Shown here: in pieces, positions 35,552-41,771 of the stretch | Layout: each line of letters begins with the position of its first letter | How positions within the stretch are numbered: the stretch's first letter is position 1 | DNA from: Effusibacillus dendaii | GTDB taxonomy: Bacteria; Bacillota; Bacilli; Tumebacillales; Effusibacillaceae | DNA length: 64,000 nucleotides | Assembly: GCF_015097055.1 (NCBI RefSeq) | Contig: NZ_AP023366.1 | Span: forward strand, 3,375,001-3,439,000 | Direction: 5' to 3' | Position numbers and translations under genes: made by a program | Notes under the pieces: model-generated | Database searches by the model: none | Told to the model about the DNA's origin: nothing | What the model saw: only the letters and a program-made list of their open reading frames with translations

Positions 35552-35601
35552 CAGAATTTGGGCATAATGAATGGTATCGACAACAAAGGAAGGATGAGAA
35601 C

Positions 35602-36078
35602 ATGGTTCCGAATGTTGGCGAACCGGCCCCCGAGTTTGAACTGTCTTGGACACGCGGCAAGCAGAAAGTCAGATTATCTGATTACCGCGGTCGAAAAATG
35701 ATATTGCTGGCGTTTTTTCCGCTGGCGTTTACACCTGGCTGAATTACGGAACTGGCCCTCTGGAAGAGGGATTACCAGCGGATTCAAGAAGCGGGTGCGG
35801 AAGTGCTGGCTGTTAGTGTCGATCAAATTTATTCGCTCAATGTGTTCAATGCGTCACTCGGCATGCTTCCGTATCCTCTGTTGTCCGATTGGCATCGGAC
35901 AACTGCCAAAATGTACGGAGTTCTGGATGAGCAGATGCAGGTGGCAAAACGAAGCGTTTTTGTGATTGATCAACAGGGCGTCATCCGTTATCGAAATTTG
36001 CAGTTCAAAGCGCAGGAACAGTCGGATTACGAGACAGTGCTGCAGCAATTGGAGCAAGTATCCGCCGTTCAGAAATAG
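35602..36078 (+). CDS. AhpE-like peroxiredoxin, candidate selenoprotein (TGA at catalytic position)
   Basis: Read through the TGA at 35740, the frame gives 158 residues of a 1-Cys AhpE-like peroxiredoxin starting MVPNVGEPAPEFELSW. The active-site motif PxxxTxxC appears as PLAFTPG-TGA-ITEL, so residue 47, the peroxidatic Cys in relatives, is encoded by TGA. The family Arg is kept in AKRSVFVIDQQG. There is no other Cys anywhere in the protein. GGAAGG precedes the ATG. Both halves are intact and in the same frame, and a SECIS-like hairpin follows. The alternative is a single nonsense mutation (Cys to stop) in a decaying gene. The host's selenocysteine genes are not in this window. Confidence 0.65.
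35740..35778 (+). other. Putative bacterial SECIS hairpin after the in-frame TGA
   Basis: TGA is followed by nine bases, then CTGG-CCCTCT-GGA-AGAGGG-ATTA-CCAG: a 6-bp perfect upper stem with loop GGA, a 4-nt bulge and a 4-bp lower stem. The loop begins 19 nt after TGA and has G in its first two positions, both within the general bacterial SECIS rule (loop 16-37 nt downstream). SelB binding is inferred. Confidence 0.55.
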
Positions 36079-37063: not shown

Positions 37064-37605
37064 ATGGCTTCCATTGACTTCACTGTACTGAAGGACGATC
37101 TTTTAGAAATCCTGGCATTTTCATATGATGGTACGTAACAGACGGCCAAGGTATTACATTATATGTCAATAAAGGACTTGAGCGGAATTTTCAAGCTTCC
37201 GCAGAGGAGTTGATTGGCAGAAATGTTGCCGTTAGACCTTCGGTAGCCCTGAAGGTACTGCAAGAACGTAAAAGGGTAACGATGATCCAGGAAACGAAGT
37301 TTGGGAAACGTGTTATGGCTACTGGAAATCCCATTTTTGATAGTGAAGGAAATATTAAACGGGTTGTGTGTAATTCGAGAGATATTACCGAACTGCTGAC
37401 GTTAAAAGAACAATTGAAAGAAATAGAGGCACAGGTAGAACGTTATCGTTCAGAATTGCTCGAACTCCGCGAAAATGTTACCGATATTCCGGGACTGATT
37501 ACGAAAAGCGAAGTAATGAAGAGAACTGTAAACCTAATTCATAAATTGGGTAAAGTAGATTCAACGGTGTTAATTCAAGGTCAATTTAATGGACAAAGAA
37601 GTTAA
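37064..37605 (+). pseudogene. Sigma-54 activator N-terminal (PAS) fragment, frameshifted and truncated
   Basis: MASIDFTVLKDDLLEILAFS then YDG, followed by a stop at 37136; the PAS domain continues in another frame as YVTDGQGITLYVNKGLERNF. A coiled linker (LKEQLKEIEAQVERYRSELL) leads to LGKVDSTVLIQG, where the AAA+ Walker A should follow, but the sequence breaks off. This is the layout of RocR/BkdR-like activators. Both a frameshift and a C-terminal truncation are visible. Confidence 0.8.
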
Positions 37606-38713
37606 GGCCGGACATGTAACGCTTGAAGAAGCTTAAGAAATTGTACGCCAAGAGATTCTTGGCAAAAAAGGGGCAGATAATAAACGCCCAATGAATCCAC
37701 GTTATGTTATCGGTCAGAGAGGATATATTTTTGCTGTCAATAAGAATGCGATATCCGTAATGAACCCTTCCATTGAGGGACAAGATCTTACGAATCTGAA
37801 AACGGAAGATGGAGTCATGCTGGGTCAGGAACTTGTTCAAACAGGAACAAATGGCGGCGGGTCTTTTTCATATATGTGGCCTAACCCCATTACCAAAGCA
37901 GTAGAATCAAAAATTACTTATGTGGAAGCGGAGCCGAACTGGGGTTGGATTGTAGCCGCAGGGGCTTATTTAAGTGAGTTCAACCAGGGAGCCAATCAGG
38001 TTCTATACCTTCTTCTTATTACTTTAGGAATTGCCCTCATAATTGGGGCTGCTGTTGTTTGGCTGTTTACGAATCATATTATGAAACCGATCTCACTGAT
38101 GGTGGAGCAGGTCGAAAAGGTGTCCCACGGAGATTTAACCATTGAGTCGATATCGGTGAAAATTAAAGATGAAATTGGCCAATTGGCAAATGATTTTAAT
38201 ACTATGACAAGCAACTTGAAAAAATTGATTCGTCAAGTGGCGCTTTGTTCTGAACAAGTAGCTGCCTCATCGGAAGAGTTAACGGCAAGTGCCGAACAGT
38301 CCAATCAAGCAGCGGAAAACAATGCGGCGATTATACAGGAATTGGCGGAAGAATCTTCTCAATCGGCCAAAAAAATAGGGGAGTATGTGGTGACCATCCA
38401 ATAAGGAATCCACAAAGCGGTTGAATCCATGGAAGCGGGCACGAAAGATGTAGCCGTAGGAATTGATGTGGTGAATACGGCGGGTGCCTCATTTGAACAG
38501 ATTCAACAGTCCGTAGCGGAAGTGGCGACTCAAATCCAAGAGGTATCTGCGGCGATTCAACAACTGTCAGCAGGTGCGGAACAAGTGGTTCGGTCAATAG
38601 ACCAGATCACAATGGTAGCAGAAAAGGCCGCAGCCGGCACACAGAATGTATCCGCATCGACTCAAGAACAATTGGCATCGATTGAATACGATCCAGAAGG
38701 AATTCAGTTTTAA
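37589..38713 (+). pseudogene. Methyl-accepting chemotaxis protein fragment with two TAA stops
   Basis: It joins the activator fragment directly. A Cache-type sensor remnant (MDKEVKAGHVTLEEA, TAA at about 37634, EIVRQEILGKKGADNK) is followed by a membrane span, a HAMP domain (VWLFTNHIMKPISLMVEQVE) and the start of the signalling helix (AASSEELTASAEQSNQAAEN). A second TAA at 38401 interrupts YVVTIQ-stop-GIHKAVESMEAG. The N-terminal membrane span and the conserved signalling tip are missing. Both stops fit Gln codons mutated to TAA. Confidence 0.85.
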
Positions 38714-41237: not shown

Positions 41238-41771
41238 ATGCCGTTAGTAGGACAAAAAGCACCCGATTTCAAAATGCTCACCACCACAAACTTGGAGAAG
41301 CTCAACCACGAAGTGAGTCTTGCAGATTACAAAGGGAAGTGGCTGGTTTTATTCTTCTGGCCGATGGATTTTACATTCGTGTGTCCGACTGAGATTACAG
41401 CGATTAGCGATCGTGCACAAGAATTTTTCGATCTGGACGCTGAAATTCTCGGAGTATCTGTGGACAGCGTATATGTCCACCGGGCATGGATTGAAACACC
41501 CCGCGACAAGAACGGAATTGGTCAGGTCAATTATCCGCTCGCTTCCGATATTACCAAACAAGTGGCACGCGATTATGATGTTTTGATTGAGGAAAAAGGT
41601 GTGGCGCTACGCGGTCTGTTTATTATTGATCCGGAGGGCATCCTGCGTTATCAGGTGGTGCATGATCTGAATGTCGGACGCAGTGTGGATGAAACGCTCC
41701 GTGTATTGGAAGCGCTGCAATCAGGGGGATTATGCCCGGCCGATTGGAAACCGGGACAAAAAACCTTGTGA
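41238..41771 (+). CDS. Typical 2-Cys peroxiredoxin (AhpC/TSA)
   Basis: 177 residues. Peroxidatic Cys in FFWPMDFTFVCPTEI, conserved Arg in RGLFIIDPEG, and resolving Cys in GGLCPADWKPG at the C-terminus. It reduces H2O2 and organic peroxides with thioredoxin or AhpF. It is a cysteine enzyme, unlike the TGA-containing peroxiredoxin at 35602. The thioredoxin-fold gene follows after 24 nt and may supply electrons. Confidence 0.94.
   Translation: MPLVGQKAPDFKMLTTTNLEKLNHEVSLADYKGKWLVLFFWPMDFTFVCPTEITAISDRAQEFFDLDAEILGVSVDSVYVHRAWIETPRDKNGIGQVNYPLASDITKQVARDYDVLIEEKGVALRGLFIIDPEGILRYQVVHDLNVGRSVDETLRVLEALQSGGLCPADWKPGQKTL

Follow-up and report, generated by a model that had tools for sequence, protein, structure and literature searches.

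Evidence for a selenocysteine peroxiredoxin of the 1-Cys, AhpE-like type in Effusibacillus dendaii, a member of the Bacilli

Introduction

In a peroxiredoxin gene of Effusibacillus dendaii, a TGA stands in frame at the codon where the peroxidatic cysteine would be expected. Does this TGA specify selenocysteine (Sec), or is it the mark of a gene in decay? The gene lies in a stretch of 64,000 nucleotides of contig NZ_AP023366.1 (positions 3,375,001 to 3,439,000), which is referred to here as the window and to which all positions refer unless stated otherwise.

Peroxiredoxins with Sec are a long-known class of bacterial selenoprotein, with 12 listed in one report (PMC1794560) and 91, from 78 organisms, in another (PMC5029168). 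Members of this family (Prx, PF00578, TxxU; PrxU and its relatives) share with the window gene the domain, the PxxxTxxU motif, the predicted peroxidatic Sec and a downstream bacterial SECIS element, or bSECIS (PMC13188914, PMC1794560, PMC5029168). However, the groups described as selenoprotein-rich in these surveys are the Clostridia and Deltaproteobacteria, whereas the host of the window belongs to the Bacilli.

Results

Reading frame and active site

The preliminary description of this locus had proposed that the frame, when read through the TGA, encodes an intact 1-Cys, AhpE-like peroxiredoxin, that the stop falls on the C of PxxxTxxC at residue 47, that the protein has no other Cys, and that the ribosome site and the remainder of the frame are intact. 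Our results agreed with each of these points (Table 1). The Pfam domain AhpC-TSA (PF00578) covered residues 5-130 (E=9.1e-35) and was continuous across the TGA, which is the only internal stop in the frame. No second lesion was present, GGAAGGA lies upstream as the ribosome site, and none of the 158 residues is Cys. If a random single-base nonsense change had occurred, only 1 of the 69 possible ways would give TGA at codon 47.

The active site reads P40-L-A-F-T44-P-G-U47, in which U47 aligns to the peroxidatic Cys of Mycobacterium tuberculosis AhpE (Rv2238c; PDB 1xvw) and Arg117 aligns to the AhpE arginine in NRGTFVVD. Three aligned lineages share the catalytic Pro, Thr and Arg without variation. 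AhpE, one of the top-scoring relatives with a solved structure (E about 1e-27), resembles the window protein in its FFPLAFT active-site stretch and in its size (153-160 aa), but has Cys where the window protein is predicted to have Sec. Assignment to the 1-Cys AhpE type follows from this match and from the lack of a resolving Cys in both the window protein and its nearest homologue, L041. In contrast, the NCBIfam PrxU model NF040737 gave 79.4 bits, far below its curated cut-off of 270, and the window protein thus belongs to a subfamily other than PrxU.

Table 1. Coordinates of the features discussed (window positions, unless a locus or contig is named)
Feature	Position	Strand	Details
Probable ribosome binding site (AAGGAAGGATGA)	35586..35597	+	From sequence
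Predicted Sec-peroxiredoxin CDS	35602..36078	+	158 aa with TGA read through; ATG 35602, stop TAG 36076-36078 included
Predicted Sec codon TGA	35740..35742	+	Peroxidatic position (codon 47, PxxxTxxU); TGA in all orthologues
Whole hairpin	35752..35778	+	Includes lower stem CUGG 35752-35755 / CCAG 35775-35778 (4 bp, not conserved) and 4-nt 3' bulge
bSECIS upper stem and loop	35756..35770	+	CCCUCU 35756-35761 / AGAGGG 35765-35770 (6 bp); loop GGA 35762-35764, 19 nt after TGA; conserved, covarying
selA and selD, head to tail	L010:8645-11114		SelD with TGA in active-site motif EKAGUGCK
Second predicted Sec peroxiredoxin, MPKGATQTKT...WTPVU (WTPVUGAQM)	L016 1501-1956 (G000:C1:1342799-1343254)		In the order, most genomes have it with TGA
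Two proteins of peroxiredoxin fold, TGA in UxxC motifs (SWUPYC, TWUPNC)	L030, L032 (G000:C1:1306575-1306889, 2365445-2365882)		Host genome

Other genes with nonsense mutations had also been reported in the window. Broken genes do exist there, but they are broken by TAA or frameshift and not by TGA at a catalytic Cys. The segment 37210-38713 holds a decayed methyl-accepting protein, with a TAA at 38402-38404, and sensor/regulator remnants, including a broken regulator near 37605; the lesions in this segment are TAA codons and frame changes. A Cys-type 2-Cys peroxiredoxin, noted in the preliminary description as well, is present at 41238.

Orthologues carry TGA at the same codon

As a single-sequence query against the genome contigs, the window protein returned no match, and an alignment-based search was required. 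Close relatives proved to carry TGA, not Cys, at codon 47. The nearest, L041, comes from another family of the same order, is 69-70% identical and, like the window protein, contains no Cys. Seven Fictibacillus loci (L067-L073) encode proteins 53-56% identical to the window protein, as does a locus from another genome (L062), the product of which is nearly identical to the Fictibacillus ones; all eight have TGA at this codon. The same is true of L095, which is more distant and lies outside the class. Eleven genomes, including that of the window, therefore share the TGA, and a sequencing error is not a tenable explanation for a codon that recurs in ten genomes besides the host's. A tRNA-Sec was found in all ten genomes tested, namely the eleven minus that of L095.

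One of the two patterns used to search the collection (FTPGC...) was written with Cys, so Cys forms of the subfamily should have turned up if the collection held any. The matches with Cys at the site were flavobacterial proteins and one archaeal protein, all from other clades. In the tree, the window protein, L041, L095 and the Fictibacillus proteins formed an all-Sec clade (support 99/95), within which the branch of L095 is long and its exact placement unsure.

Among the three main lineages, pS was 0.72-0.86 and pN 0.20-0.34, so that synonymous divergence between lineages has reached or come close to saturation. The values were alike before and after the TGA, which indicates that both halves are maintained as one protein. 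In the Fictibacillus orthologues (L062, L067-L073), the C-terminal part contains three or four Cys, one of which may serve as a resolving Cys, unlike in the window protein. No conservation of gene neighbourhood was found around the orthologues, and an AlphaFold model built from a three-row alignment was of low confidence (pLDDT 44) and added nothing.

The downstream hairpin covaries

In the published bSECIS model, the apical loop lies 16-37 nt from the UGA and there is a G in the first two loop positions (PMC13188914). The window hairpin, which was located exactly as first described (GGA loop 19 nt after the TGA, 6-bp upper and 4-bp lower stem), fits this model in its spacing and in the G at loop position 1. 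However, of the TGAs that occur anywhere in the window, 17% precede a SECIS-like stem that is 6 bp or longer, and 4.3% precede a fold at least as stable as that of the gene. The presence of a hairpin was for this reason discarded as proof of Sec in itself.

The preliminary description had proposed aligning homologues to see whether the hairpin is kept. This held for the 6-bp upper stem and the GGA loop, with compensatory changes, and not for the lower stem, which was paired in 44% of cells and was dropped as a conserved part. The upper stem was paired in 98% of cells (nine distinct sequences), and the GGA loop was fixed across all nine. Both sides were altered in three of the six upper-stem pairs, including a change from C-G to U-A and, in L095, to G-C. 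The covariation score, which represents about four independent lineages, was 0.314 as compared to 0.171 for shuffled data, was matched in none of 500 shuffles, and exceeded every slid control. Conservation of the protein does not account for the pairing, since the residues encoded under the stem differ (L-W-K-R, S-W-K-G, S-W-K-E and V-W-K-T). An Rfam search with the hairpin found no matching family, returning one chance-level hit.

The host genome encodes a complete Sec system

The genes selA, selB, selC and selD, for which a search had been proposed earlier, were all found in the host genome (3.45 Mb, one contig). SelA scored 527 bits; SelB was full length and above its cut-off (400.9 bits); tRNA-Sec (selC), with anticodon TCA, was above the gathering score. 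The selD gene directly follows selA and contains a TGA in EKAGUGCK, the known Sec motif of SelD. Similarly, an FdnG-type formate dehydrogenase (L120) has a TGA in ARIUHS, the classical Sec site. A second predicted Sec peroxiredoxin of the same genome has Sec at the same site as the window protein, but is only ~38% identical to it, falls in a separate clade of the tree and has a different hairpin. These further selenoprotein-type genes, a partial list from targeted searches that includes the UxxC proteins of Table 1, support an active Sec system in the host. Within the host order, selA was present in 14 of the 14 genomes examined, and several genomes encode predicted Sec peroxiredoxins.

Two other peroxiredoxin types were also observed with TGA. 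A BCP/PrxQ-type protein has TGA (ATPGU; L021, L022) in two genomes from the host's genus and a Cys relative (MTPGC, L024) in the host, a possible case of Sec/Cys exchange within one genus. AhpC-like FTFVU proteins, from another genome of the genus (L019) and from a distant member of the phylum (L112), have TGA as the peroxidatic codon.

Discussion

We consider the window gene almost certainly a genuine selenoprotein gene, in which Sec would be inserted at UGA 35740 by way of SelB and the hairpin, and its product a 1-Cys-type (AhpE-like) peroxide-reducing peroxiredoxin. At the level of sequence, this reading is based on the conserved TGA, the complete machinery, the covarying hairpin and purifying selection before and after the TGA. 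The selenocysteine peroxiredoxin first proposed is thus supported by the sel genes, by the relatives with TGA, and by a hairpin kept through compensatory changes.

The mechanism of Sec insertion is itself established. From it and from 1-Cys peroxiredoxin chemistry we infer SelB binding, peroxidase activity and a reducing partner. Sec-tRNA(UCA), made by SelA and SelD, would be carried by SelB, which would recognise the mRNA hairpin 19 nt downstream and so direct Sec to the UGA. The selenolate of U47, set by Thr44 and Arg117, would reduce peroxides, and an external thiol would then have to reduce the resulting selenenic acid, because the window protein has no resolving Cys.

With Sec inserted, the main role of the protein might instead be that of a peroxide sensor or thiol oxidase, since the 2-Cys peroxiredoxin at 41238 and the second Sec peroxiredoxin may cover bulk scavenging. 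However, the three aligned lineages keep Pro, Thr and Arg without exception, as peroxidases do, and we regard such a main role as improbable. A recent change of TGC or TGT to TGA, leaving a Cys-peroxiredoxin pseudogene before a chance hairpin, would be in keeping with the decayed genes nearby and with the frequency of such hairpins after TGAs of the window. In contrast, the same TGA occurs in orthologues of separate families that are saturated, or nearly so, at synonymous sites, the hairpin covaries, the genome has the full Sec machinery, and the frame carries no second lesion. With TGA and hairpin kept in distant orthologues, a nonsense mutation is practically excluded. Hardly more credible is a UGA read as another residue, given that the TGA is always at the peroxidatic site, or the production of just a fragment from an internal start, for although an ORF from GTG 35803 exists, its product would be without the catalytic segment, and codons 1-46 are constrained like codons 48-158.

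As a selenoprotein gene, the locus would belong to a small Sec-peroxiredoxin subfamily, so far seen with Sec only and mainly in spore-forming Bacilli, of a known parent family. The literature searched yielded no paper on Fictibacillus and selenocysteine together. Standard gene calling would truncate the gene or label it a pseudogene. The finding adds to the Sec-peroxiredoxins a distinct clade from the Bacilli, Fictibacillus included. We suggest, as a reading somewhat less likely than not, that the window protein, L041, L095 and the Fictibacillus proteins form a Sec-only subfamily of Bacillota in which no Cys form survives and the invariant Trp-Lys (TGG AAR) is dictated by the hairpin. If so, the recoding signal and the enzyme would be locked together.
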